NCBI RefSeq assembly: GCF_035083965.1
Contig: NC_089722.1
Span: 23,520,142 to 23,584,141, forward strand
DNA length: 64,000 nt
Direction of reading: 5' to 3'
DNA from: Branchiostoma lanceolatum
Lineage: Eukaryota > Chordata > Leptocardii > Amphioxiformes > Branchiostomatidae
The notes beneath the pieces were generated by a model that did not search any database, was not told where the DNA came from, and saw only the letters and a list, made by a program, of their open reading frames with translations. Each line of letters starts with the position of its first letter. Positions within the stretch are counted from its first letter, which is position 1. Positions 1-55,193 of the stretch are shown here, one piece after another. Both the position numbers and the translations under genes were made by a program.

Positions 1-1230
1 CACCTGTTATGTCAATCCTTCCACAAATGTGGTAAATCGAAATAAATAAATAAATAAATGTAGCAGAGCCACGATGTGAAGCCAATAGATTGCGCTGCTT
101 CAACCGCTACTACAGCGAGACAAAACCTGACGCTAGTTAGAAATATCGCGGACTTACATGTTTATACCACGGATATACTAATATGTTGTCTATTCCATAA
201 TGTATTTTGTGTGTATATAGTATTCAAATCTATTGCATATGTATATCGAAATCGTACACAAGGTTATTAACCTGGCCGACGACGGTTCTAATCAAACCTG
301 GGGTGGATGTAGCCTGACTACTTCGCGCTCCTAGCGGCCGGCCCGACGGATACCGCCCCCAAAAGGGGGTCATTAATCTCCGCCAGAGAGAGCTTGTGTA
401 AACACAGGCTAGGGGTGGATATACATAATTGAAATTGAAACCCCCACACGAATATTGTAAATGAGCACCGTGAAATGAGTGTGTACGAAAGCTGTGATAC
501 GATTGCACGCTCTCACCAACTTGCAAGAAGATACGAGTACTAGTGCAACACCTGGTCAACTCGGAACACTTATTCTAGTAATTAATGACACAGTTTTCTA
601 TTTTGGGTGCCATGATTCCCAAAAATGTGTTTTCCTTTGTTTTATTCTTTACTGAAGTGGACTACAAAGCCAGTCACAGAAAGATGAAGTAACCAAAGTT
701 CTGTGGAGCTAGCAGGTAATTTTCAAGAGGTCTGTCTGATAAGTCAGAGTACAAAAACATGTATGTTAGCATAGCCAGTATCACGAAGTCATAGTCAGTC
801 CGTCTTAAAAGTCTCCCGTGCTTAGTGTACGGAAAGCCTTGTCTATGTGTACTTTCTTTATCCTTACTATGTTAGTCTTTCGAAGCTTCAAAGATGCAGA
901 TAAAATAACTCGAATTATACGTATGTCAAGCATATCATTTTCTTATTGAATGAAGCAAAGCTTCTAAGAAAAATCAATCAAACGTAGTGACATATTGTTG
1001 TTGCTGCCTTTTGCAAAAATCCGGACAGCTTCTTTGAAAGCTGTGACTTATTACCTTTCAAAATCAAACTTTACTCATGACAATAAAAGAAGAGCCAGTC
1101 CAAGCATGTCATTCATGATAACAAAAACCAAAAACGTTTGAAACATTGAGAAACAGCGCTAGCTTTGATGTATGGGTATATATTGCAACATCCAGAAACT
1201 TTATTTCAAACATCGATAAACAGCTGTAAA
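1..1230. repeat. Diverged interspersed repeat, copy 1 (partner at 33140-33870)
   Basis: After a short (AAAT)n tract at about 40-59, which looks like the tail of a non-LTR element, the sequence from about 76 to 1230 aligns piecewise with 33140-33870 in the same orientation. Shared blocks include the AAAACCTGACNC block near 121, the TTGTCTATTC block near 186, the GAAGTCATAGTCAGTC block near 785 and the AACATCGATAAACAGCTGT block near 1210. Divergence and indels are heavy. No intact protein is seen. The repeat class is unknown. Confidence 0.5.
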
Positions 1231-1644
1231 AGTGTATACAAACTAGGGCATTTTCTATGCCGTATGCAATGGAATTTCGTCCTTGCTATAGAAAAGGCCA
1301 TACCTGCAAGGCGTTGCCAAAAAGTAATTCCCTAGGGAATGCGTTCGTGAAAATCCTAGAATATTTGGCAAACCGAAAGCAGTACTATACAATAGGCTCC
1401 CCCCCTGAGGCGTCGCCAAAAACACTACGCTGCGGTGCTATGTATCATATATACATTCGCAAATATTGAATTGCAAATCCTCGTGCAACCACTGATCATG
1501 AAGTCTCAGAATCAGGGCTTTGAAAGCTCATACCTATAAGACGGGGAAGCTGAAGGCAGTAGTGGATCAAACTCAGAAATAGATCTAATATCTGCGATTG
1601 TCCCTGGTAACAACAGACACTCAAGTATTTAAACCTCTTGTCCG

Positions 1645-4600
1645 TTAAAAATCAATCATGGCAGTAACCCCAAACGTTAACGTTACACACTTGTCCGTAG
1701 CGGTGATGGCCTCCGTTGCTTGTTGAACCTCCAAGTCGCTTTTTTCCTGTACCGTCTGCTGGAAGCCCTCCATGTGTGTAGAAATCTCGTCCTTGATCTC
1801 TCGGCACCCTTCCTCCAGCATACCGCCCAGCTTAGCTTGAAAGTCCTGTGCAGTGTTCGTCACACCGAAGTTCACCAGCTCACGAACCTTGTCCACGTCA
1901 AAGGTTTCTTTCTCCTGGACAAAAAGTAATTTTAGTATAAAAACTAGAGTTCCATGACCTCATGCCTTCGCCAGTTGATCATCTCTACCCAAATAACAGA
2001 AGTTGTCCAAACTATGAGCTTAACAAAGAAGGCTATGCTAACATTTGTAATCAATTATGCAAATTAAATCCTTATTTGAATAATTCAATTCAACGATATT
2101 CACATTCACAAAACTTCCAAATGCCATAAGTGTGAAATTGACGTCATTTATTTACCAGTATGGAATTATAGTAGCTTCTCATTGATTATGCAAATTAGGT
2201 CTTCATTTGCATATTTTCTATGTATTAACATTCCTCTCTTCTTCCGTTACAAATGTCACATATTTGAATATTCATATCACGGAACACAGCAGGGTTTTGA
2301 AATCGCCTCATTGATTATGCAAATCATACAAAGCATCATTTAAGCTATCTACTATAATAACTCATAATGATTCGTCAACTCAAACCTGAGTCAACTCAAC
2401 CTATTTTCTCATTAATCATTCAAATCAGGTCTTCATTTGCATAGCCTATATCTATCAATATTTCTTTCTTCCTCAGTTACATATGTCACATGTTTTAGAG
2501 TCCTATCATGAAATGCGGCGGATGTATAAATTAGTTATACAAATTCTCTAATTATGTAAATCATCACAGCTATCTACATACTAAAAATCATGACCATCCA
2601 TCAAGCCCTTCTTGAGTTATTCCCTTTCAAAGTCTGAAGCAAAACCTGCTCCTGCAGTACCACAAAAGCCGCTAGGTGGCCCAAACCACCAAAAAATCAG
2701 GACCATGGCGTCTCCAGAACACAAGATATGAAAACAGTTCCGCTGCAGTACCGTAACCAGCTGCTACCCAAAATCTAATCATTTCCAGGTCTCATCAATA
2801 CCTAAGCTACCCACATACCAAATATCAAGACAACCTATCCACGTCTGCTCGAGTTATGCTCTTTTACATACATACATTATACACACACACACACATACAC
2901 ACAAAAACGCTACCCAAAACATAACCTTCTCGGCGAAGGTGAAAATAGACAGAAAACGGGGATTTGTCCAATTTCTATGGTATCACCTGCTTCACAAACA
3001 ACAGACATACTGACTATGCTTTGTTTTCAACAAAGGTAGTCAATGCATAACAGCCAAGTGGGTGCAAGAGATCCGTTCTTCTTTAGGAACAGACAAAAGA
3101 CAGTGATAGCCTGCCTCAGTACATACTGACTGATATTCAGCGAAGATGATGATGATGAGTCTTTGTCCAGTAGGTGTAAGGGAATACCCGCCAATTATGC
3201 AAAATTTAGCACCTTAGATAAGGTATTATGAGTCATGAGTATTCGATAGGTCTATGTGTGTATTATGTGTGTGAATTTATTTACCAATTCTGCTGCTGTG
3301 CCCACTTGCGCGTCCGTCGTAACATTTGAGGTGTTTCTTGTTGGCCCCGGTTTCCCTATGTTTTTCGAACAGGTACAGGTGCTTTTCTTGAGAACAGTCT
3401 TCATTGTCGCAATCTGCCTCTTCATGTCGATGATATCCTTCAAGTACCTGTAGGATAAAAATAAGAATATATGTATAAAAATCAGTCAATCAGAAAAAAA
3501 GTTAACTATACGATAGAAGGCTACAAAATGTCAGAACGCAAGCAATGAAAGAGGGAATAAAAAGAGCTAACACACTTGACAATGAGGGAATCCAGCGAGC
3601 TGTAGTTGATCTTCGGCTTGACGTGGACCTTCTTTGCATCCGAGGCAAACTCGAGTGACCGTTTTGTGTCACTCAGTGACTTCTTGGACGGATCCACGTT
3701 GACAATAAAAGCCGTCTTCGAATTTCCCGTCAGGACCCTTTTCAGCAGCTTGGTCATAGTACTGCGTCTGAATTTGAAGTCCTGACGGTTTTTAACGGAC
3801 AAATCTCGGATGACATCCTTCAGATAAAGGAGGGACAGGTTGATGTTGGCTCCCTCACGGAGACCCTCGGCGTCCTTGTTGACTTCCCCTGCGGTCTCAC
3901 TCCCAGCCAGATCCACAAGATACAGCTCTCCCGTACGGCCTGATTCTGCCCCCGATTTGTGGAGAAGACTTACTACTACCTGGATCGAAAAAGAAGTATA
4001 TCACAAGTCTTTTCTCGCTGTCCCACTTTTCGTAATTGTCGATATGTACATCTTTTTGGCGACGCCTCAGGAGCGAGTCAAATTGGTATATATATTGTGT
4101 GCAGTTTGCAAGAATTCTAGGAATTGCACAGGAATGTGAAAGTCCACGGGACGATAACTCATGAATGCCTGGATGTATTGTCTTCATATTTTGTAGGGGG
4201 GTAGGTCTGTGTGAGACTTTGAAATGAGTATATTTTGGCCCCCCTAGCAACTTTCTATGATACTGCAGGGGAACTTTCACTTTTCAAATCTCGTGTTCTG
4301 AACATGCTATGGTCATGAATTTTTAGTGGTGGATAGCTCTTTGTTGGGAAAATAGGTCCTGTAGATTTGGACCCCCTAGCAGTTTTTTAAACTGCAGGAG
4401 CTGATTTTGTCTCAAACTTTGAAAGAGAATAACGCAAGAAGGGGCTGACGGATCGTCATAATTCTTGGTGTGTAGATAGCTTATTATTAGGTGATGATTT
4501 ACATAATCATATGCCAATTATGCAAATCCATATCTGATTTGCATAATTAATGAGGCAAGTTTATAAACTGCATTCCATTATAGGACTCTCAAACACATGA

Positions 4601-7600
4601 CATATGGAACCGAGAAAGAGATAAATATCGATAGATATCACTTATGCAAATTAATACTTAATTTGCATAGTTAATGACAAAATACTATAAATCCACAGTG
4701 GTAAATGATGGGGATTTCATTCTTGCACCATTTGGAAGTTAAGTAAATGTGGCCAGTATTAGACACAAATCTTGCATATGAGGGCCTCATTTACATAAAT
4801 TATGAGGAAATGGTACGATATCTTTTTTGTGAAAACAAGACTTTCATACATTGGACAACTTGTTTTACTTGGGCAGAGAAGGTGATCAACTGATATGATT
4901 AATGCGAGGTCCTTATTTGCATGTGGGCTAAAAAAACGAAAACAATAACAGAGACCACCGTCGCCATGGCAACATATTTTTATGTTGCCAATCTTGTTTC
5001 TGTTACTTACAGGGATTTTTCTGATTTCAGGCTATTGTCTCATATGATGAATTATTGAATATTGGATATTGAACTTAACACTTTAGTGACGCCTATGCAT
5101 TCCTTTAAGAATTGGTTTGTTGTATGGATAACGACACGTCCCCAATGTGTTTTCATAACATCGTTCTAGTTGCATTTGCTCACGGAAGGTTCGTGTACAA
5201 AATTGGTCATCGATGCTAACTAAAATTTTGCTAACATAATTTATCGCGTTCTGTAGTTTTCACCTGAAAGACCATGTGTGACCGGGAGCTGTGGTCGTTG
5301 GCCTGTGTAGCTCTGCTTCTCCTCTTCTTGGATGCGTCAAAAAACACTTTCATGGCGCCCTCAGCATCGGTGACGTCGTGTTTCTCCAGGTTTTCCGCTA
5401 CAAACATGGATATGTTGGACGGGTCTATTCTGACATCCAAGGCTGGGCATTCTTTCGCAATCTCAGTCAGGTCAAATACCTGTTAAACAATCACGCACGA
5501 ATAAACATAAACATAAATTGTTCTTTTGATGGCCACAAGGCCAACCGTTATAGATCTGCTCCGACTTGTCTGATATAATGCTGGGAAGTATGGAGAGTAA
5601 ATTGTAAATAAGTAGAAACATTAGGGTCCACCAACCTTCTCATTGTAGATCTCAAGTACACTGACGAAGAAGGCGATGTTCCAGTCCTGTTTCTTCTGAG
5701 ACTTCAGAAACAGCTGTTTCAGTGCTCTGTAGATGATGCCTTCTGTTTTCTCGTTTAAGTCTTCGTCCGGCGGCCCTGTCATGGTGTAAGTCTTCCCCGA
5801 GCCAGTTTTACCTGAAAGGGCATGCGGAAAGTCTAAAATTCTAAAATATCTATTCGAAGATATTCAATTTCTGTGATTAAAAGCCATATCATTATGGTAT
5901 TTTCAGCGCAAACATATTGTTCCGATTGCTCGAGACCTCTAATGGTTTAAGAATCTCCAACAAGATATCGATGAACTTTTGAACAACATGTTTTCAGAGT
6001 GTATATTTCTTTCTCAAATCTTCTACTGTAGGTAGACACATTCGAATAAATCTGTTTGATCTAATGGCATAGCGGGCGTTTTTGTGTTCTCACCATAACA
6101 CAGTATACAGCCGTTGTACCCCTCCAGTACTGCGTCAACAATGGGGCTGGCCATGGTGTTGAAAATCTCTGCCTGCGTGCTTTCCTCAGGGAACACCTTG
6201 CTGAAGACAAACTGTTTCACTCCATTGCCCTTTACAGGAATCGTTACCTGCAAGAATATGATAGTTATCGTTTTGCCTCGTTTCATCTATAACATATTTA
6301 CAAGGAGCCGCAATCATGATTTCATTTCATGAGAGGTCATTTGCTAAATGTAACGAACTGACCTGCATGCACCTCGCGTCCACAGTCAGACACCCCTGCC
6401 CCTGTTCTTCCTCCTTTCCCCGTAGTGGGCGCACTCGAATGACCACCTGGATTTTGTCGTCGTTTTGCGGATTGCCTGTAACAGGCACACAAAAAATCCA
6501 AAATCAGTCACTAATACTAACAAATATATCAATCAATCAATCTATCGATCGATCAATCGATCGATTAACTCTAACTGTGCTGAATCCCGCTCTGTAAATG
6601 CTCGGCAAACCCTCCCGGGACCAGCCCTGCTCGTTTGAACCGAAGTTTTGGGTATTGGTGGCGTGACCAGCGAACAGTGTTCAGCCAAACAAAGGATTAC
6701 CACAAGCTCGTCTTGTGGAAATCCGCAAAGGTCACTGGGGAACTATCAGCCAATCAAGAAAATAACGGCTGTTTGGGCCAATAAGGCTAGCCCATTAATG
6801 ATGTTAACCTTTTCGAGTGGAATATCATAAACGAATCCAATCTACCATGCAAAAAAAGATATTCGCATGACATATGTCAGTTGACCATCTTTTCTACTCA
6901 AAATACACAAGTTGTTCAAAGTATAAAGTCTTATTCATGTGTGTTAGCAAAAAAGGTATTGTAACATTCCTTCATAAATCATGTAGATGAGGCCCTCATT
7001 TGCATGATTCATGTCTGATCATTTCCACATATACTTAACTTCTAAACGCTGCAAGAATGAAATCCCCATCATCAACCAATATGGGGTTACTAGTATAGTA
7101 TTTTGCCATGAATTATGCAAATTAGGTATTCACATGGGACGTGTTTGAGAGTCCTATAATGGAGTGCGGTGGATTTATAAGCTTTCCTCATTGCGTGCGA
7201 ACGCTGTGCAAAACATGACCTTCTCGGCGAAGGCAATTATTTATGAGCACTGTGACGCCACCAATACCCAAAAACCTCGGTTCAAACGAGCAGGGCCGAT
7301 CGCGGCAGGGTTTGCCGCCATTTGCCGAGCAGGATTCAGCACTGCTTTAGGAGGGTGACGCTACTATACAGGAGTTACCAGTTATCTCTTCATCGATACC
7401 TCGTATTTGTATCTGTTAAGTGATTGGTGAACCAAGAACATGAAGAACAAGAGTCGTTGCCCTACACACCTGTTTCCCCCACCACCACCCTATCCAGTCT
7501 AGACCAGACCAGGTCTTTGTAGTCGGCCGCCTTACACAGCAACAGGGAGTCCCGGAAAGCCTTGAACGCGCGGGTACCTCTCTCAGGTAGTATCGCCAAC

Positions 7601-10600
7601 AGCTGGGACGCCCGCTGCTTGACATTGTTCTCATGGTCCATGATCTCGTTCACATCCCTGTCGGTTCAAAGTCGAAAATTCTTTTTCTCTAAGTAGTACC
7701 GCACAACGTGCAACGTAACACAGCTCTTTAACCTTTGCTTGCGTGCAACACGCATTGCACAGACTACGAGTTAAAGCAATGAAACTTAGAAGTTTGATGA
7801 TCTTTGCCATCCCGATCTGTTGCAAATTGGGATTATGTTTATGTTCTTTAATTCGTGGGACTGTAATTTGATGTTTTGCGATGTTTTTAGGGCTGTACAT
7901 CTGGGTTTTTTTTAATATCCTTGCACATATTGTTTGTACCATTCGAGACTTTTTCTAGATGTGTTTCTTTGTGTTTCCAGTGCCTTTATAAAAACAACTT
8001 TTAGGCACTGAGAATGGTTCATTGACTTAAAAAAAAGCTAATAGATAATCACACAAATAGACTTTTACCTGTCACTGATGACCTTCTCGCTCAGGAGATG
8101 GTCCAGAACGTGACCAGCGTCCAATCTCTGCACGATGTGTTCTCGTGTCAGCTGAAGTATCTCTTTGTGTTCGTTTTCCATTTCACCAACATCCGAGGCA
8201 TCTGTATCTGTATCGTTGCTACGGCCTGACGGTGGGCGGTCATCTTTCTGTAAGCTGGATCCGCGAAAAATGTTAACCTTAGCACGTACTTGTGACTTAA
8301 CTATTGAAAATTAAAATCGCTAATATCTTCTGTTCCCTCCGATTTTAGAGCTGATAATGCCCTAAAATTGTCGGATTACCGATCGTAACGGGGGGTGGGG
8401 GTTGGTTTTTACTCGACGCGACACGCTTTTTCACGCGCTCAAAAATTGTCAGGTTTTAATACGTTTGTGAACGAAATTTTTGATGAATGAAAGTTTGATG
8501 AATGAAATTTTTGATGAATGAAATTTTTGATGAATGTAAGTTTGAAGAATGAAATTTTGGATGAATGAAATTTTGGATTGATGAAATTTTGACACAGCAA
8601 TGTTACAAAAATACTTCAGTAAGAAATTGATTCACACTGTTCATGAACCTTTTACTCTCTAGGATTCTAAAAATAACAGGTAAACTCTGCAAGACGTTTT
8701 GGTGAATGTACCGATTTCTGCGCTAACTTGGTATATTTTTGCACTCTTCAAGAGTTAAATTTAAGTAAACGGAAAGACGAATTGGATTCTAGAATATTCT
8801 ACCTGTCTTCGAGCTTCTAACAGTAGCTTTGTGTTGTGCGTACTGTTTGCGACCCGACCCCGGCGCGCCATGCAATAATGTGACCCGGCCCCAAATAGTA
8901 AAAAAAGTCATTAAAAACCGACACCAGCTACATCACCAAAAATCGCTTGTTCGAGAGAATGTTGCGGGAAAATATAGAAAGGTAAACAGGTGACTATAAG
9001 CTGTGGAAATAGGTGCGAAATGTTTGACTCCTAGTAGGGAAATGCATGTCACTTGGCTCCTTGTCCACTTAGAGGGGCTGGGTCTTACAAACTTTGAATT
9101 TCGGCTTGAGTCGAATTTCGGCTTTGAGGGGCTGGGTCTTACAAACTTTGAATTTCGGCCCGGAGGCTAACAACAAACGTATAATCATTAACTATTGTGC
9201 AAACATGTTTTAACATTTACGCATCTCTGACACTGAAGTGACTGAACTAATGCAAAGCATTTTCTTATGCTGTATGTTGAAGTGTTGAAGTAAAAGTAAC
9301 TTTTATACTTCAGTTTTAGTTTCAGTAACGTAACCATTTCATCTGGAAAACAAATCGCATATCACACGGTTTTCGATCTGTCCTGGGGTGGAGCATAATT
9401 GTAATAATCAGATGGTAAAAGTAATATGAATCCCAACGACGAAATGCAAAAAAAGACGTGCAGTTGAACCTACCATTATATAGTCGATAACAAGTAATCC
9501 ACAATCGCCGCGTATCTGCTTGGGATCCCGTATCCGCCGTGCCTCTGTGTCCGCTATAGACCCTGTGCGCGGGAAAAGGACTGCAACGGAGGCTAGCACT
9601 GACACGGAGTAAATCAAAGAGACATGAACTCTCCTTTATTCCTCGCTCATTAAAACTGCTCCATCACACTGACTGTTAATACCACCAGTTAATATTGCAC
9701 TGTTCAGCGGCGCTACGGATGAACATTTAAAGCCTAATGTAACTCCACTGCTAGAACTGTTATGCTGTTGAAATTGTTTATGTGCTAGTGAGACTTAACT
9801 TGGTGCCTTTTTTTAATCTGTCCAAGCAAGATATTTTAAATTCGTGATGTAATAGTTAATATCTTAAATGGTGACTTTTATCAATAACGAGCCCTTGTAA
9901 ATAATGACGCATTTCATGTGCAAATTTCTGTGACATGCAAAGTCATTTATGAATAAAACTGAAGAATAAAAAAAAGCCAAATGCAACCTTGGTCACAGAA
10001 AACAATAAACAGCCTGCTTCTTGTTTTGGAAAAGGTTCTGTATTGCTGTCTGTTACAGTCAATTAAGATGAATTACCACTGTAAAACGCGTCCCATGTAA
10101 ACACGTAATGATAGATCACACACGGCAGACAAATCAAAGTCGTTAGCGACCAACGTTTCTGTCAGAAACACAAACACTTGCTGGAGTAATTTACAATACA
10201 CCGAGGAGGGGGGTAAACAACATTGTGTAGATACATTGTGGTGATTAAAGGGCTTTGGGCTAGGATTGTTATTTTTCCGCTTACTCATGAACAATGGTCG
10301 ACAGTCGCCTCGCCATGTACATTTTAGAAGGCAATGCAATTTTTGTACATTGTGTATCAAAATCTTCTAAATATAACAATAGTTGTACATGCATGTTGCA
10401 TATTTTGTAGAATAGCGTGAGAACGACGTAAACATTAGATATAATTGGGACGGAAAGTTATGTTAAGTTAAGCCATCTTATATAGTATATCCTATCAGAC
10501 ATGACAAAGATTCAAATTCCCTGATAGTTTCTACAACAACGTCCATCCTATGATTTCAACTGATGGTCTTATTGCTACAGTTGCAGTTCATTCAGCGTGC

Positions 10601-11874
10601 TGTGCATTTTGTTTCATGCAAGTCATTCATAGATATCACTTGAATTCCTGCATCATCAGAATTACCCCCACATTTGACATACATCATTTTGTCTCGCAAA
10701 GTAACTGTTATGCTTCGGTCCCATTTCCAATCCGGGGCCCGGCCGGGCTGTTTGCGAAAATGAAAAATAAAGCATACATATCAAGGAAATACGCAATGTA
10801 TGATTAGGAGTACTTTTTCAATGTATATATTGAAGCCGTAAAGTTCAATGAGCCCATTCTTTAAACGTTTTGTGTCTTTTGTTGTCTTTTATATTATATC
10901 TATCGTTCTAGTCCTACAAGCTGCCCGACCGGGCCACGCCTTGGAAATGGGACCGTTGCATAGCTCAAGCGCACTCGACTCGTGCGTTACTTTGGTCTTC
11001 ACTGGGTCCTTCAAGTCTCGGGTAAAATAAGCCCTGTTGAAGAACCAATCATGAGGCAATGCTAGGTGTCAATGAAAGACTGAAAAATATGTTGCTTGAT
11101 CGATCTGATTTGATGAAGAATTTTGCGCGCACGGTACATTTGAATTTTCTTCCGTACGTCCGACAGATTTTTCCTCCTTTTGTTATTCGTCTTTCGAAGG
11201 CGAGAGTTTCTTTGATAAACGGTGATAGAAAATCGGAATGTTGTCGGATTGTTCACCCAGAACAGAAGGATTGACACATACTGAAGTAGTCAACGACGAA
11301 AATACCATACCATCAAACACAACGACGCACCTTGGCATTAATACTCATGTTTTCTTTGTCTCCTTTGAAATATTAAAGTTGTCCAACTAACCATTCCTTG
11401 CATTTTGGTGTTATTTTCGTGCCCTATGGCTAATATCGCCACCTCGGTTGCATACTCTTAGTCTTACAAGCACTTGTTGGTCTGGATGTTAAATGTATGC
11501 AAGCTAGTGCTGTGAAAGGACGGAACTGTGTTGCAGAAACTAGACATGAGTTCTGCAATTCTGTGGCTGTTTAATTCATCAAATTTCTGTTTCAGAAGTA
11601 GTCCGTTCATCTAATAAATCATGTGTTCGAACAGAAACTTCGATATCACAAGTTGTTGCAAATACAACCCTAGGACTGCAGTAAACGGTGATCTACACTA
11701 AACCTTTACGCCTTTGTTCTTTTCTTGCAAAGAAGAGCCGTTTGTCCATATTGCATATTGCATATCATGACCCGCGGATTCAATACACCAAGGCATTGCG
11801 TCTTACCTGGACTCTGTCGTCGGACCAGCACCACTGGGACCTGGAAGCTGCTCTTCAGATGCACCGTTATCCAT
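1645..11874 (-). CDS. CARD-kinesin fusion protein, 10 exons, 645 aa
   Basis: Exons on the minus strand: 11874-11807, 8254-8069, 7657-7470, 6475-6363, 6247-6094, 5811-5636, 5479-5264, 3979-3576, 3447-3285, 1914-1645; all junction phases agree. Residues about 50-140 read as a CARD: six-helix-like pattern with the QLLAILPERG and RAFKAFRDSL blocks typical of RAIDD/caspase-2-like CARDs. Residues 156-164 (IQVVIRVRP) open a kinesin motor with P-loop GKTGSGKT at 237-244, switch I NDHSSRSH at 356-363 and switch II LVDLAGSE at 388-395, so ATP hydrolysis looks possible. Helix alpha-4 and loop 12 are divergent (NLSL for the usual NKSL; FRRSTMTKLL for the usual YRDSKLTRLL). A short basic linker and a coiled-coil-like tail follow. 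Known of the families: CARDs bind other CARDs in apoptotic or innate immune assemblies, and kinesin motors move on microtubules. Inferred: a motor recruited by CARD contacts. The tail could have more exons after a possible donor near 1690. An AATAAA lies on the minus strand at 1205-1200. Confidence 0.8.
2030..2700. repeat. AT-rich dispersed repeat with ATTTGCAT motifs
   Basis: Lies in the last kinesin intron. About two copies of a unit of roughly 225 bp carry the same landmarks (TTAGGTCTTCATTTGCAT at about 2196, a diverged copy at about 2425, then CTTCTTCCGTTACAAATGTC-like sequence). The tract ends in a GC-richer block around CCGCTAGGTGGCCC (2670). The same family occurs in reverse at 4180-4800 and again near 44640-44850. 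No coding potential is seen. Confidence 0.5.
4180..4960. repeat. Dispersed AT-rich repeat, inverted relative to 6840-7190
   Basis: Two partial units, each starting with a CCCCTAGCA block next to an ACTGCAGG block (4240 and 4370), followed by long sequence with ATTTGCAT/ATGCAAAT octamers. The part from about 4540 to 4800 is the reverse complement of about 6990-7190. It fills most of the 1.3-kb kinesin intron between the exons at 3979 and 5264. Confidence 0.55.
6573..7345. mobile_element. MITE-like element with ~90-bp terminal inverted repeats
   Basis: The ends at about 6573-6663 and 7255-7345 are imperfect reverse complements; both contain CCCTGCTCGTTTGAACCGA and GGGTATTGGTGGCG. Internal sequence has no transposase and includes the AT-rich repeat shared with 4540-4800. 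The element sits in the kinesin intron between the CARD and motor exons. Superfamily not determined. Confidence 0.65.
8465..8592. repeat. Minisatellite, ~19-20 bp unit
   Basis: Six or so imperfect copies of a unit like TTTGATGAATGAAATTT lie in the first kinesin intron. Confidence 0.75.
8600..9500. other. Intron sequence, no feature recognised
   Basis: First kinesin intron. A block around CTTACAAACTTTGAATTTCGG occurs twice (about 9086 and 9138) as a short local duplication. No open frame or RNA structure stands out. Confidence 0.4.
9506..9595. mobile_element. Solo end of the TAGCC/GGCTA foldback family
   Basis: About 90 bp nearly identical to the terminal repeats of the element at 41083-42033, including the CTTGGGATCCCGTATCCGCC block, and ending GCAACGGAGGCTA. 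The mate arm is missing, so this is a truncated copy in the first kinesin intron. Confidence 0.65.
10713..10960. mobile_element. Short inverted-repeat element (MITE)
   Basis: CGGTCCCATTTCCAA at about 10717 followed by a GGCCCGGCCGGGC block is repeated as its reverse complement at about 10920-10957. The ~250-bp element contains no protein and lies in the first kinesin intron. Confidence 0.55.
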
Positions 11875-13497: not shown

Positions 13498-15785
13498 TTA
13501 AACCAGCCTATTTCCAATTGCAACTGACTGAGTCTGCGCTGCTCTCGTTCCCGGCGCATCCAGTGCCATGCCACCATCGTGGGGAACGACGGCATTATTC
13601 CTGGACACAAGACTTTGCAACCACGACAAAAATGTGCTTGTTTGGTTATTAGATTCGTTACTAGGTTGCTGACCCCAACAACCCCCTTTGACGATACACA
13701 ACACGATACAAACCACGAAGACAGGAACGATCAAAATCAAAAGGATAAGATATAACAAAATCAACAGTGTGACCCAGCCTGCACCCTGGCCCCGAGGGTC
13801 GTACCACCTGCCCGGATCCTCCCGGTACCACGTAGCCACACATAGCACATCACAACATTCGCAACAGGAAACCTCTCTAGCTGGTGTATCATCGCCTCTG
13901 GAAAAAAACATCATATATCCCACTCGTCATCTGTTCACTTCTGGACCTGTCACACGAATTCGAATTTGTAAAATGGTCTATTATTGACTAAGCAGACCGT
14001 GTCGTTTGGTTGTCAAATTTTGCGTCAAAAATTTGATCAGGAGATATATCTATGAACATCTGTCACTATCAGCTTTCTCATAGAGCAAAAGCAGGGGTGG
14101 GCTATAATTGTCAAGCTCACGATATACTTGAGGGCTACGAGCACATCTATGACGCCATCGATATCGACGTCATCATCGCTCCGCGGCCGGGACACTTGAG
14201 CACAGCTCACCTAAGCTGACGATCTTGACGATTGGGTTGGGACGTCACTACGTCTTCTCTTGCCGTCTCTGCTCTGGCCTGAGCGTATGTAGGAATATCG
14301 TGATAATTGTGAAACAATACAATACTTTTAGTCACAAAATCTATATTCACATTTATCGGTAGGTTGGGTCAAGCAAATTAAGAAAACCACTTTGAGAAGT
14401 AGCAATCGTCACAGCCTGTGGAAGGATACTTATCTCATGTCAACAAGTCTAAAGTATGTAACGTTAGTTATCTATAGTCTGTAGCTAGTAATCTGTAAAA
14501 TATGTCAATCAAATATGTGATCATGATGAGTCATGACAAAGAAACTTTGCTGGATTTTTTTCCTGCTGCGTTTTAATTATGCATTCAGCTTGCATTAGAT
14601 TTGTCAAGCCGACAAATTGGTACATACAGAATCTTATATATACAGTATACGGACACATTATTAGACACAGCTGATGTAAAAGACAACATTGAAATCTGCA
14701 CGTATTCCTATTCTTACCGGTGCCACAGTTTGTTTTCTTTGGTCCCGGCTGGTTTCGTCATGTTCTGCCCGCTGCTCCTCGATCTTCTTCAGCAACTGTC
14801 TTGTCTGCTGATGCTGACTGTAAATCTCATCGAGTAAACTGCATGATAGCAGTTGAGCTTAATCAATTGATTGACCAACGGCAATAAGTTCAGGGAATTT
14901 TTTTTCAATGTCATCTGGTCGATGATCTGGGTGAACTTGGCAAGGGAGCAATACAATAGACATCAAACGATTTCGACAGAATGAGGTGAATGGTAAACAT
15001 TAATGTACGTTAGAGATCAACAGCAAATTTTATGGCATCACTTGCATTTTGTATCACACAATGGTACGCGTGAGTACTAAAAGTAATTATTACAGTGGAC
15101 AGGTTTTACGTGTCAGTCATTCTTAGTCAGCATATGGTCTAGTGGTTAGGATTTGCACCTATTTCCTCACTCTACTCGTGCGAAAATGGGTCCTTAGCTT
15201 CGGTTAGGGGCGTTCTCTCGGAAGGGACGTAAAGCCGGAGGTTCCGTGTTTGAGGAGAGCCACACCTCCTGCACGTTAAGAGAACCCACGACAATAATCG
15301 ATAAAGAGTAGGGTCCATCCCGGCGGAGTGATCATGAGTTGATCAAACCCAACAGTCTGGTCTAACAAAGCTTGTAGTTGTACCTAGTTTCAAAGCTCGT
15401 TTGTTGCGCCCAATTGAGTTAATTACCCTTTTCGATATAAAGCTGAGAAATGCAGTGTTGAGAACTCAGTCTAGTTAAAGTCAATTTGGCTATGTCAAAT
15501 ACCATAGCGGCCCGTGACCAGAACAAATCAATAGTAATAGGGGCGTTGGTTAAAGGGCACCTCAACAACAGAAGCAAGTGTTAATTTAAAAAAAAAACAT
15601 CATCTTTATGAATGCAAAATCGACGGAATTCTGTACAGTCTCATCACAGATTAACAAAAAACTAACAATTCATAATCTAGTAACTGAGTAATGCCTATAT
15701 GATGCCAATCCACGGAAATGCTTTACCTGGCCTCTGATATCGGATCAGCACCGCTACCGCCTGGACGTATATCACTGGACGCCAT
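13498..15785 (-). CDS. Putative small one-pass membrane protein (alternative 3' exon of the CARD-kinesin locus), 152 aa
   Basis: Model: exon 15785-15727 (19 codons plus 2 nt) joined to 13897-13498; the phases match and the second exon stays open to a stop. The product starts with a short Gly/Ser/Pro-rich head and has a Cys-rich patch (SCCECCDVLC), a hydrophobic segment of about 28 residues (LLILLYLILLILIVPVFVV region) and a polar tail. The first exon is paralogous to the kinesin first exon at 11874-11807: same length class, same splice phase, similar PGGSGAD / PGPSGAG core. No family recognised. It may be a separate gene or an alternative end of the kinesin gene. Confidence 0.4.
14718..14838 (-). 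CDS. Optional coiled-coil exon upstream of CARD-kinesin
   Basis: A 121-nt exon bordered by an AG acceptor (14841-14839 side, ATGCAG) and a GTAAG donor at 14717. It enters in phase 2 and leaves in phase 0. The 40 codons are Gln/Glu/Lys-rich with heptad character (LLDEIYSQHQQTRQLLKKIE). It cannot join the membrane-protein exon at 13897 in frame. It fits between the exon at 15785-15727 (ends phase 2) and the CARD exon if that exon uses the inner acceptor at 8247 (TTACAG, then AAA GAT GAC), which is phase 0. So it probably belongs to a longer CARD-kinesin isoform. Confidence 0.45.
15128..15330 (+). mobile_element. tRNA-derived SINE
   Basis: Starts with a pol III A-box-like GGTCTAGTGGTTAGGAT (15137), as in tRNA-Glu/Asp, followed by GGAAGGGACGTAAAGCCGGA (15220) and GCACGTTAAGAGAACCCAC (15272), a body often seen in marine invertebrate and lancelet SINEs. 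There is no intact cloverleaf, so it is not a tRNA gene. It lies between the exons at 15785 and 14838. Confidence 0.6.
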
Positions 15786-17221: not shown

Positions 17222-19671
<2,450 letters not shown>

Positions 19672-19949
19672 CAAGAAATGTCGATAATTCGTGAAAACAT
19701 TGGAAGTAATTCTACCACATGCAAGTTGACCCTAGCGTGTAACGTTAGCAGACGACCTAGAGAGCATCTACTTCCGGGTTAGATATATTTCAAAGTACGA
19801 AAACACGATAGCTTTCCGCAAGTTGATCGTTGGAGTCTTGTGATATTTCTCAATCTCTATGAAATACTGATATATGACGGAATTGTTTCTATTGTAACGT
19901 TGCAGAATCTTTTTATGTCGAAACTATTTAGCCGGAAGTGATGACATTG

Positions 19950-44600: not shown

Positions 44601-47600
44601 GGGCCCAAGCGGAACTTTCGGTTTTGATATGTGGTGCTCTGGAGGCAGATGTTAGGAAAAAGTGATGAAGGTTTGGGCCCCCTAGCAACTGGAACTGCAG
44701 GGGCATTTTTGTTAAAGCTTTAAAAAGTGGATAACTCAAGAAGGAGTTGACAGATCATTGTGACTTTTAGTATGAAGATAGCTTAAGCAAATTATGGAAG
44801 TCAGGATCTTATTTGCATGATTCATGAGGAAACTTCATTTTGATATTAATTAGTCACATTTGAAAACTCAAAACTGCATTTTCCAACGACATGTCTAATG
44901 ATTCCATCTTTATCCATTTGCTGTATTATGGCGTATTCTGCGTCAAAGTCATGCCTTTTGCTGTGCACCCTTCCGTCATAGTAGTGGTAGGGAACAGACT
45001 GGTTCTGGTAAGTAGACATGGGGTAGAAACCGTACATGGAGATCCTGTCACAGAAGGTGGAGGCCAGGGCAAAGGTGTTCAGGCCAGTCGATGCAAACTT
45101 CCATTGTTTATCTGCAAGTTCTGTGTACAAACTGACAAGATTGACAAAGATCAGCCTTATGCAAAATGTTACTGGTAGTATATAATATATGTATGTCCTT
45201 TAAATGCAACTATTTTGTGAAATATGATATGTAAATAAGACCATATGTGGATGGTTAATGAAAATATCAACATTTTGTACAAGATCTCTCTTACCAAATA
45301 TTTTTCACCTTGGAACAAACATTCTCAAGTTACCCACTTTGCTAAACTACTATAGTAAGTACTGTTGCCAAGTTTAATGGAAAACATAGGTGCAGATACA
45401 TGCATCTTAACGTACCTTTTACTGTTCAAGAGAGACCTGTGTGGGAAAGCCGTTATGGTGGACAAGTTGTTTTTCCTGATAGCAGCGTCAATCACCTGCA
45501 TCTTTGATCTGGCTTTCGACGTAAAAGAGTATGCGTAACTGAAGACCATTCCCGGAGACTCGCCGAGACGAACTAGCATGGCTGTCCTCAGTAACGGGTT
45601 GCTAGACTGGAGAGCTTCGCTGACCTGTGACAACCGTACGACATTTACGATGGTCAAGTTGGTCTTGCTGCCAACGTCCCTCTGATAGTGGTGCACAGGC
45701 GGTAGATTGGAACGGATGACAAACTCGTGAGCGTCTATCTCAGTACCACAGCTGCTACGAAGGAGTATACCACTGTTGCCAACAACTGCGCACGTTGGGT
45801 AGTGCCTAACAGGCGTGTGAACAACGTCACATGGCTTTGGGTGGCTCGTAGCCGAGTTACGAAGTGTGAATGTTAGGTGGTCGCATTTTTGCATGAAGAT
45901 GTTGTAGTCCGAGGAATAGATGATATGTCTTTTGGGATCAAAATACCTCTTAGTAATGTTCCTGCGGACAAAAAGTGGACAAATAAAGAGTAAAATGGTA
46001 AATTGCAACAAGTTTTATGGCAATGTTATATTAAGTTAACTTGACAGTATACTTGTATCAAAGGCTTCTAAACAGGTATAGACATATTAGTGTCTTTTTT
46101 TTTTATATCAAAGTTTGCAGTGAAGGATACAAATTATGATGGAAGACAAAAGTTCTACTCTTGTGCAACTATTCGAGAATATATTCTTGAGTGGTTAAGA
46201 AAATATGATTATCATACTAACTATTATATTAACTTACTTCATTTTCCAAATATTTGTCATATTGAAGTAGACTTTCCTTCCTGCCATGAGCTGGTTCCGT
46301 AAAGCCGTCAGCGCCTGGCTATGTCCTGCTCCCATTGTATTAAGACTCTGGTCATGTGCATTTCTCAAGTGCAATATGGCAGCTTGCTTGCACACATAAA
46401 ACAGGCTCATGGTAATCACACCAACACCCATAAGTATGGCAGCACAGAAAAGTTGTCTGATCATGATGCTCCTTCAGGTAGGATATCTTCAAATTTACAA
46501 AATAATAAACCACAAGCAAACCTTCGCCTTAAAAAAGAGTAGAAAAGAAAGTATAGTATGGTAAGCCATGCAATGATGATAATGACAATGTTATATGTTA
46601 AGGGGGAACCACTACAGTACCAAAATATGGTCAATATGTCTTTCTTTTCAGTCACAATAACCTGGTTGCCAGGCTTCCTAAAGCCCCATAAGCCGTCTTT
46701 CCAACTATACACCCCACAGGGATTAATTAAATAATAAGGGAGCCTTGGAAACCAGTCTATAAGCCCACTCAAGTCTAGCAGCCAGCTTAGGGTTTCTTAA
46801 GCGCCTATCTCACTGGACCCACAACACGTTGGCATCCTCGCTGCATCCTAGATTGGATTTGTGTAACCCTTGACTTTAGAATGGGAATATCATGCAAAAT
46901 GTAGTATTACTAAAAAGACAACAAAACACACAAAGCGTAAAAAGATTTGTTTTTTATGATCATTGAAATTCGTTGATCATGAGTGTGCTGTCAAATCACT
47001 CGGTCGTAGCGAGCTCGCCAACGTGTTGCGGGTCCAGTGACATAGGAGCTTTAGGTTTTGATAGAATCAAATCCCACAAGCAACTGATGCTTTGTGGACT
47101 AAGACCTGCTCTATCCCTAAAGTCCCTCATGATAAACTAGTTAAGCTAGTAGGAGACCTCCCGGATAACATTTCCACCCGAGGTTTAGGATTGGTCATTG
47201 GTGGTCTTTTAATTTTTTGATCAGCCAATCTATCTGAGCTCATCTATCTTGCCTTAATCATTAGATGACAGCTATTTTACATTTATGACAAATAAGTAGA
47301 CACCATCCCACACAACTGTACATTGTATGTCCTCTACTGACATGTACTGTTGTATTGCTGTATTCAGGAGTATGCTGACGAGTTTTACAAGAACTACAAT
47401 GGTATGAACTACAGCAGTCTGGAGGAGTCAGTGTGCCACCTGTTGTATGTTGCAAGGGTCGAGGCTATGAAAGCTGAACAGGTGAGGAAGCCATTCACAA
47501 CCAAACCTTATTCCTTACATAAATCAAAAACACTAGCTTTTCTACGATTTGGAAGAAAAAATTGTCTAATTCACATAAAAGTCAGGTACATGTATCTATA

Positions 47601-54130: not shown

Positions 54131-54266
54131 GTGACGAGTGCCGACGAAACAATGCAACTTACAGACCGATGTTGCAGACAACTTATTACAATACAGTATA
54201 AAGACGGACGGTTTGATGCGAGTTCCAGTCTTGACCGGATATCGGAACACGACGACTGACAACACT

Positions 54267-55193
54267 ATGGCAACAACGTCGCACGTGAAGAAGAAGACTT
54301 TGACGCTGAGCCAGAAAGTGGAGGTCATCAGAAAGTACGAGAACTTCGGTAGAGGGTCGAGGCGTCTGGCGCAGGATTTTGGCGTGGGAAAGACTCAGAT
54401 TCAAAATATCATCAAGAGAAAGAGAGAGTACCTCGACGACTTCGAGAACAACGCACCCCTGACCAAGAAGAGAAACGTCCGCATCACGGGAAACGAAGAA
54501 ATCAACGAGCTGTGCTGGGACTTCTACCGCGACACCACCTCCCGGGGTGAGTCCTGTACCGGGCCGATGCTCCGAGAAGCAGCCTTGAACTTCGCCAAGG
54601 ACCTGGGCGTAACGACATTCAGGGGGTCGACCGGGTGGCTTGACAGTTTCAAGCGGCGTCACAACATTGTTGCAACCGGTAAGTCGAAAAACAGTCCCGT
54701 GGTGGATTCCGACATTTCTCAGGTGGCCAGCCAGAACTCAGTGCCTCAAAGCATCCGTGCAAGCGTGGACAATTCGGCAACCAGGGGTCCTGAACAGGTA
54801 ACCACAAATGTGCACACATCTGCAGATGTTTCTCACGAAAAGTTGGCAACCATCGAGAAAACCCCGACTGCATGCAACACAGAGAAGGCAGCCCAGAACC
54901 CACAAGCTACAAGACCAGAAGATGTGGCAGCGGTGAAAGAGGAGAGTGAGGACAGTGAAAGTGACTCAGAGGATGAGTACGTCGAGGAGGACAGTATCAT
55001 TAAGGACTTGGACACGGCGATAGAGTATGTCAGACAGGTGAGGCTGTTCTGCTTGGATGAAGGACTAGGAGATCAGTTGTTTAAGATTTGGCCAGTAGAG
55101 GACGATTTGCGCGATATCAGGATGAAAAGACGTCGACGAACTCCGGCTGAGACGAAACAGACCAAGATGGATGACTTCTTCACGAAAGCGTAA
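54267..55193 (+). CDS. Intronless pogo/CENP-B-type DNA-binding protein lacking a transposase core, with C-terminal PIP box, 308 aa
   Basis: The start at 54267 has a good context (A at -3, G at +4); an in-frame ATG at 54216 has a poor one, although the frame is open from 54138. Residues about 8-62 match the N-terminal psq-type helix-turn-helix of CENP-B/Tigger proteins (LSQKVEVIRKYE, QIQNIIKRKREYL). Residues about 78-136 match the second CENP-B helix-turn-helix (GPMLREAALNFAKDLG, GWLDSFKRRHNI). The DDE endonuclease domain expected next is absent. Instead there is a Ser/Thr-rich linker, an acidic run (EESEDSESDSEDEYVEED), a helical segment and a basic tail ending QTKMDDFFTKA. QxxMxxFF is a PCNA-interacting (PIP) box; pogo transposase is known to bind PCNA. 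Likely a domesticated, nuclear, DNA-binding derivative. ATTAAA at 55415-55420 may be its poly(A) signal. Confidence 0.82.
   Translation: MATTSHVKKKTLTLSQKVEVIRKYENFGRGSRRLAQDFGVGKTQIQNIIKRKREYLDDFENNAPLTKKRNVRITGNEEINELCWDFYRDTTSRGESCTGPMLREAALNFAKDLGVTTFRGSTGWLDSFKRRHNIVATGKSKNSPVVDSDISQVASQNSVPQSIRASVDNSATRGPEQVTTNVHTSADVSHEKLATIEKTPTACNTEKAAQNPQATRPEDVAAVKEESEDSESDSEDEYVEEDSIIKDLDTAIEYVRQVRLFCLDEGLGDQLFKIWPVEDDLRDIRMKRRRRTPAETKQTKMDDFFTKA

Follow-up and report, generated by a model that had tools for sequence, protein, structure and literature searches.

A CARD joined to a kinesin motor in a single lancelet gene

Does the lancelet Branchiostoma lanceolatum encode a microtubule motor with a death-fold domain of its own? 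We examined a 64,000-nucleotide (nt) stretch of its genome (the window, to which all coordinates refer), on the minus strand of which a first-pass annotation had placed a CARD in front of a kinesin motor. We refer to this CARD-kinesin gene as gene B and to its protein as P0001. The claim that one gene holds both a CARD and a complete motor is borne out by profile scores, by in-frame splicing, and by the same domain order and join region in five more lancelet proteins, and we regard the CARD-motor fusion gene as real with near certainty.

Gene B (1645–11874, minus strand, as are all its exons) consists of ten coding exons that join in frame to give 645 amino acids and a stop codon, with GT-AG borders at all nine introns; it is defined by the reading frame, Pfam matches and an identical deposited protein. 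This frame starts at 11874 and stops at 1645, the outer limits first given for the gene. Exon 1 (11807–11874), placed by frame and splice sites, holds the start codon and the linker MDNGASEEQLPGPSGAGPTTES and ends in a phase-2 donor. The next three exons were assigned by frame and Pfam: exon 2 (8069–8254) encodes linker and the first half of the CARD, exon 3 (7470–7657) the second half, ending at the phase-1 CARD-motor join, and exon 4 (6363–6475) the start of the motor (KIQVVIRVRPL). The motor continues through exon 5 (6094–6247; frame), exon 6 (5636–5811; frame and motif), with the P-loop GKTGSGKTYT at residue 237, and exon 7 (5264–5479; frame and motif), with switch I (NDHSSRSH, residue 356). 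Exon 8 (3576–3979; frame, motif and alignment) encodes switch II (DLAGSE, residue 390), an altered alpha-5 region (KFRRSTMTKLLK) and a neck-linker-like stretch. Exon 9 (3285–3447; frame and coil score) encodes most of a short post-motor coil, the crude peak of which (residues 496–523) starts in exon 8, and exon 10 (1645–1914; frame and alignment) matches the relatives described below up to the residues TDK and then reads on to the stop.

The exons 8254–8069, 7657–7470 and 6475–6363 fall where the first-pass annotation had put them, and the phase-1 splice that it proposed between CARD and motor is present as GAAACAG/gtgtgt ... ttacag/GCAATCC (slashes mark the exon borders). The open stretch around exon 4 (6327–6503) contains no ATG before the motor, so this exon requires an upstream exon. 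A deposited NCBI entry, 'kinesin-II 85 kDa subunit-like [Branchiostoma lanceolatum]' (645 amino acids), is identical to P0001; outside annotation thus arrived at the same protein. Profile searches, proposed earlier as a check, score the N-terminal part as a Pfam CARD (residues 54–124, expectation value [E] 6.9e-12, 45.7 bits, cut-off 23.9) and place the motor above its cut-off as well (Kinesin, PF00225, residues 161–485, E 3.1e-91, 306.2 bits, cut-off 29.3, profile positions 1–327 of 327). An NCBIfam profile search gave nothing above cut-offs.

Homologues were sought among ~5.8 billion proteins; 7987 candidates were scored, 3776 matched and the best 120 were listed. Six of the 120 carry a CARD, P0001 included, and all six are from lancelets. 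In each of the other five (P0002–P0006) the CARD (37.3–45.6 bits, cut-off 23.9) precedes the motor. A hydrophobic tail follows the two domains in P0002 (B. lanceolatum), P0003 (B. floridae), P0004 (a floridae x belcheri hybrid) and P0005 (a floridae x japonicum hybrid); P0006 (B. belcheri) has CARD and kinesin and no such tail in its model, and a seventh family member, P0007 (floridae x belcheri), has motor and hydrophobic tail and no CARD in its model. P0001 is 75–76% identical to P0002–P0004, themselves 93% identical to one another, and 56–61% identical to P0005–P0007. In the CARD-motor linker P0001 agrees with P0002 at 19 of 26 residues, with P0005 at 12 of 25 and with P0006 at 12 of 26 (P0002 and P0003 agree at 25 of 26). 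With five further proteins in which a CARD precedes the motor, a one-off chimeric prediction is unlikely.

No CARD-kinesin from outside the lancelets occurs among the 120 homologues listed of the 3776 matches. When the CARD region of P0002 served as query, five proteins were recovered from 328 candidates (~485–1543 amino acids), all of them family members; P0005 was missed, so distant cases could escape this search. On the best reading, the CARD-kinesin family would be lancelet-specific among the proteins compared here. Its members appear in databases as KIF3A, KIF4A or 'kinesin-II 85 kDa subunit-like', so that the architecture is already deposited, several entries under ordinary kinesin names, yet apparently undescribed. 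The kinesin-2 identity implied by the database name is unsupported. A quick maximum-likelihood tree (midpoint root, no bootstrap) was built from 41 motors hand-chosen from the 120 matches, with most kinesin families unrepresented. In it the seven lancelet proteins lie on one side of a branch with a Shimodaira–Hasegawa-like approximate likelihood ratio of 100 and the 34 other sampled kinesins on the other; the stem of the lancelet group measures 1.5 changes per column. The lancelet proteins stand apart from the KIF3A proteins and are not nested among the sampled KIF3A, KIF11, KIF12 or KIF18B proteins.

Two details of individual relatives may be added. Ahead of its CARD, P0006 has a weak partial match to a Death domain (residues 3–38, E 0.017, below cut-off); this protein may be a model fused with a neighbouring gene, or a Death-CARD-kinesin. 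P0004 and P0007 lie on sequences of equal size (22,212,590), which suggests two family copies on one chromosome of the floridae x belcheri hybrid assembly.

The intron between CARD and motor contains a foldback element (inverted-repeat, resembling a miniature inverted-repeat transposable element; 6577–7342, no strand assigned), found by DNA self-comparison. Its arms (6577–6667 and 7252–7342) are ~90 bp each and pair in three pieces that are 88–95% complementary. A transposon as the cause of the fusion is unlikely: the foldback was seen in gene B alone, the sole copy whose DNA was compared, and the fusion is common to six proteins.

Among solved structures, a profile made from the six family CARDs matched a designed protein first (5e-9), and the family's CARD profile also matched RAIDD (1e-8), Apaf-1 (2.8e-7 and weaker) and caspase-9 (2e-5); the closest natural proteins in the PDB are RAIDD and Apaf-1. 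The stretch LLAILPERGTRAFKAFRDSL aligns to a 20-residue segment of RAIDD, and the pattern ILPxRGxxAFxxFxDSL is common to the CARD-kinesin and RAIDD. These likenesses point to a CARD of the apoptosis type, and the structure matches name no partner. The domain likely serves as a working homotypic adaptor. By Pfam it is a canonical CARD, of the kind that RAIDD, Apaf-1 and caspase-9 have, but attached to a motor where those proteins carry a death domain, NB-ARC or caspase.

All three motifs that the first-pass annotation had reported in the motor were found, the P-loop with K where other kinesins have Q. At the 89 near-invariant columns (one residue in at least 85% of 34 other kinesins), P0001 keeps the common residue in 70 and P0002–P0004 in 71 each. 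The coil peak at residues 496–523, after the motor, scores 14.8 on a home-made scale, on which 60 shuffles gave 7.8 ± 1.8 (maximum 12.3). A motor followed by a neck-linker-like stretch and a coil is the layout of a plus-end kinesin, and it is from this layout that we infer direction. The motor is quite probably active.

P0001 departs most from its relatives at the C-terminus. P0002–P0004 run ~250 residues past the end of the P0001 match, through a coil, TSCCECCEVCCTGTWY..., a strongly hydrophobic stretch and a short terminal piece, and the C-termini of P0005 and P0007 show a related arrangement of cysteine cluster and hydrophobic segment. We take the cysteine cluster to be palmitoylation-like. 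Maximum 19-residue hydropathy is 2.67 in each of P0002, P0003 and P0004, 3.13 in P0005 and 2.89 in P0007, with peaks 36–63 residues from the C-terminus in these five of the seven family proteins; three control kinesins reach 1.34 (P0015), 1.11 (P0018) and 1.11 (P0023). We consider it likely that the tail of these relatives is membrane-inserted. P0005 and P0007 have a second cysteine cluster after the hydrophobic segment, so a single-pass anchor topology is not assured and their tails may be arranged differently from a simple single-pass anchor. The P0006 peak is 1.75, at residue 98. P0001 reaches 1.18 and has no C-terminal hydrophobic segment that would class it as tail-anchored.

The relatives' splice boundary is placed by alignment at TDK, where gene B has a GT at 1690 that it does not use. 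An alternative last splice from a donor at 1690 to 1603, ending KDNRRY and a stop, is possible and would likewise give a protein without the tail. The five relatives' tails matched window positions 1–1700 only at chance level (E at least 1.3); tail exons could lie beyond the left edge of the window. A tail search with P0003 alone recovered P0002, P0003 and P0004 from nine candidates and missed P0005 and P0007.

At one further site in the window, 13875–13768, a tail related to theirs was found, with 58–61% identity to P0002–P0004 over 36 residues (E 3e-10 to 7e-10). Here we propose a tandem neighbour, gene A (13498–15785, minus strand throughout), 1.6 kb upstream of gene B. From sequence and splice sites, its four exons join in frame with GT-AG borders into 215 residues: a start like that of gene B exon 1, a coil, CCECC and a hydrophobic segment. 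Exon 1 (15727–15785) includes 33 nt that are 82% identical to the last part of gene B exon 1, donor included (E 3.8e-5 for ~700 x 800 bases compared), and global alignment of the two first exons scores 56 against 23.6 ± 5.3 (maximum 43) in 500 shuffles. Exon 2 (14718–14838; LLDEIYSQHQQTRQLLKKIEEQ...) matches the P0002 coil after TDK weakly, with 49% identity and E 0.08 over the window. Exon 3 (14211–14278) is placed by frame and splice sites only, and exon 4 (13498–13897) holds the cluster CCECCDVLC and the hydrophobic segment; it contains the tail match to P0002–P0004, and the segment is also present by hydropathy. Pfam finds no match in gene A, neither CARD nor motor, and a wider DNA comparison of genes A and B at E 1e-3 gave no match.

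Gene B stops matching its relatives at TDK, where a coil weakly like that of gene A exon 2 starts in them. From the likeness of the first exons, and from the tail and the TDK-following coil in gene A, the two genes look like tandem copies of one ancestor that keep complementary parts, A the tail and B the CARD and motor. Both the exon 1 donor and the boundary placed at TDK are in phase 2, so removal of the entire CARD-motor block would keep the frame. A fuller scheme, which we put forward as speculation and think more probably wrong than right, holds that lancelets evolved a self-propelled CARD platform, a kinesin set into a membrane by its cysteine-clustered hydrophobic tail and bearing a CARD at the opposite end, in which death-fold assembly directly switches the transport of an organelle or vesicle. 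At this locus the ancestral gene would have split into a soluble CARD-motor (gene B) and a motor-less membrane tail (gene A), the breakpoints seeming to fall in one shared pair of phase-2 introns, after exon 1 and at the TDK boundary.

What might such a protein do? The first-pass annotation spoke of a microtubule motor recruited by death-fold signalling, and this is plausible because the CARD resembles those of RAIDD and Apaf-1. We would see the family as a lancelet motor that brings CARD signalling onto microtubules, membrane-bound in the long relatives and soluble for P0001, a reading that we hold to be an even call. The motor would be active and plus-end directed, and the CARD would bind CARD-bearing partners from apoptosis or innate immunity, most likely RAIDD-, Apaf-1- or initiator-caspase-like. 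Placed before an N-kinesin, it would either draw CARD-bearing partners to the motor or draw motors to a CARD assembly, and motors would be pooled by such clustering. For the long relatives the load would be the membrane in which the tail sits: assembly of CARDs would gather motors on that organelle or vesicle, which would then be moved. P0001, having lost the tail, would be a soluble CARD-motor whose cargo is the CARD complex. That transport of CARD complexes is the main role is conceivable, though we lean slightly the other way.

Several observations pull against this reading. P0001 departs from the consensus at 19 of the 89 near-invariant columns, mostly in common with the whole family, and 7 of the 19 lie at residues 436–451, in L12/alpha-5, where the consensus IPYRxSKLT has become FKFRRSTMT (positions 436 and 437 are changed in all seven family members, 441 in six of seven). 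The L12/alpha-5 region of a kinesin motor faces the microtubule. The P-loop change, Q238K in P0001, is also family-wide: Q is replaced by K in six proteins and by R in the seventh. Given the altered L12/alpha-5 region and P-loop, binding or cycling of the motor may be altered; with the nucleotide motifs present and the departures concentrated in L12/alpha-5, the nucleotide site looks usable and the microtubule contact may be retuned. On the coil score a KIF3A control reaches 15.8, below its shuffle maximum of 18.0. The membrane tail is read from hydropathy, and the segment is absent from P0001 and P0006. Judged by their names, the family proteins are computer-predicted models, one of which (P0007) lacks the CARD. 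The CARD partner is a guess, and amphioxus caspase-1/2 have DED and DD in place of CARD, according to the part of the source available (PubMed Central, PMC3196919).

Three other explanations compete with a motor that carries CARD signalling. The one we take most seriously, though we think it unlikely, is that the CARD is structural and regulates the motor in cis, by autoinhibition or head dimerisation, as might SAM and other small domains that are fused to kinesin motors. The CARD evolves faster than the motor, as expected of a domain with no fixed partner: P0001 and P0005 agree at 37 of 80 CARD positions and 209 of 324 motor positions (P0002 and P0003 at 71 of 80 and 329 of 335). Fast evolution is usual in immune domains too, however, and a canonical CARD score, with RAIDD and Apaf-1 as the best natural matches, fits a purely structural role less well. 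That SAM-KISc is an ancient kinesin architecture (PMC2867816) is a point for cis-regulation; a point against it is the lancelet repertoire of at least 45 caspase genes and numerous death-fold fusions, as the available text of PMC3196919 and PMC2575513 describes. At the other extreme the fusion could be a gene-model artefact, an adjacent CARD gene and kinesin gene joined by prediction. All of the evidence comes from predictions, and reading through the end of exon 3 reaches a stop (VGETGV*). Against this, reading frame and splice phase agree across the join, the motor exon offers no ATG ahead of the motor, and order and linker recur in P0002–P0006, which come from other sequences, from three or more named species and from more than a single source of annotation. 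We therefore rule the artefact out for practical purposes and leave it only a very small residual chance.

It is also improbable, somewhat more so than cis-regulation, that gene B is a tandem duplicate, truncated and of little or no function, in a genome where presence-absence variation is frequent. Its tail is missing and exon 10 reads on after TDK, the closest family member among the matches listed is 76% identical, and P0001 has a terminal branch of 0.14, compared with 0.006–0.011 for P0002–P0004 (0.43, 0.35 and 0.21 for P0005, P0006 and P0007). In B. belcheri, kinesin-complex and microtubule Gene Ontology terms are enriched among dispensable genes, according to the available portion of PMC12373286. 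Yet all ten exons are open with GT-AG borders, and the motor has few changes at family-invariant columns. Of 335 motor columns, 55 differ between P0001 and P0002, but P0001 departs at only 6 of the 163 in which the remaining five CARD-kinesins are uniform; counted in this way, P0005 departs at 37 of 194, P0006 at 32 of 189 and P0002–P0004 at 0–1 of 157–158, an informal comparison in which P0005–P0007 sit on longer branches. So few changes at family-invariant columns suggest that the gene B motor stayed under constraint after the tail was lost.

With the kinesin superfamily the lancelet CARD-kinesins share a complete motor that has P-loop and switches and is followed by a neck-linker-like stretch and a coil; they differ in the CARD in front, the altered L12/alpha-5 region and the long stem (1.5 changes per column). 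MAVS combines a CARD with a C-terminal membrane anchor. In P0002–P0005, likewise, a CARD lies close to the N-terminus and a hydrophobic segment close to the C-terminus, but with motor and coil in between; P0001 is without the anchor. SAM is a helical interaction domain. SAM-KISc kinesins, like the CARD-kinesins, fuse a small interaction domain to the motor; the domain there is SAM, not CARD, and the architecture is ancient, whereas the CARD-kinesin was seen only in lancelets here (PMC2867816, in the parts available). The farnesylated KinesinCaaX of Trypanosoma is another kinesin with a hydrophobic C-terminal attachment of its own, through a lipid on a CaaX box instead of a hydrophobic segment, and the available text mentions no CARD (PMC3206815). 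Closest in kind are the lancelet CARD+AIG1 fusions, which show the same lancelet-specific CARD shuffling with AIG1 instead of a microtubule motor (PMC12373286, from partial text).

The routes known to connect death-fold assemblies with microtubules run through separate adaptors and motors. A single polypeptide with both parts would make the link between CARD assembly and motor gating directly testable. New death-fold combinations abound in lancelets (PMC2575513, PMC3196919, PMC12373286, each in its available part), and this gene would be a clean case of such domain shuffling extending to the cytoskeleton. The word 'kinesin' does not occur in the available main text of PMC2575513, nor do 'lancelet', 'amphioxus' or 'Branchiostoma' in that of PMC2867816, a survey of 1624 kinesins with 105 architectures. 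In the open-licence PubMed Central literature, judged by titles and abstract openings among the matches listed, we found no description of a CARD-kinesin and, by titles and abstract openings, no animal kinesin with its own membrane anchor. As far as searched, no kinesin with a CARD would have been described before P0001, and no animal kinesin that has a membrane anchor of its own may have been known before its relatives; the combination of CARD, motor and likely membrane anchor appears in no other kinesin examined.

Elsewhere in the window, exons of a quinolinate phosphoribosyltransferase (QPRT) gene lie at 17231–19731 (minus strand), with QRPTase_C above cut-off in two pieces and QRPTase_N below, and an open frame at 45325–46014 (minus strand) matches GT29 sialyltransferases (E 1.1e-25). 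At 54135–55193 (plus strand) an uninterrupted 352-residue frame, with no transposase catalytic domain among its Pfam matches at E 0.01, combines CENP-B_N and Tc5-type DNA-binding domains with an acidic stretch.

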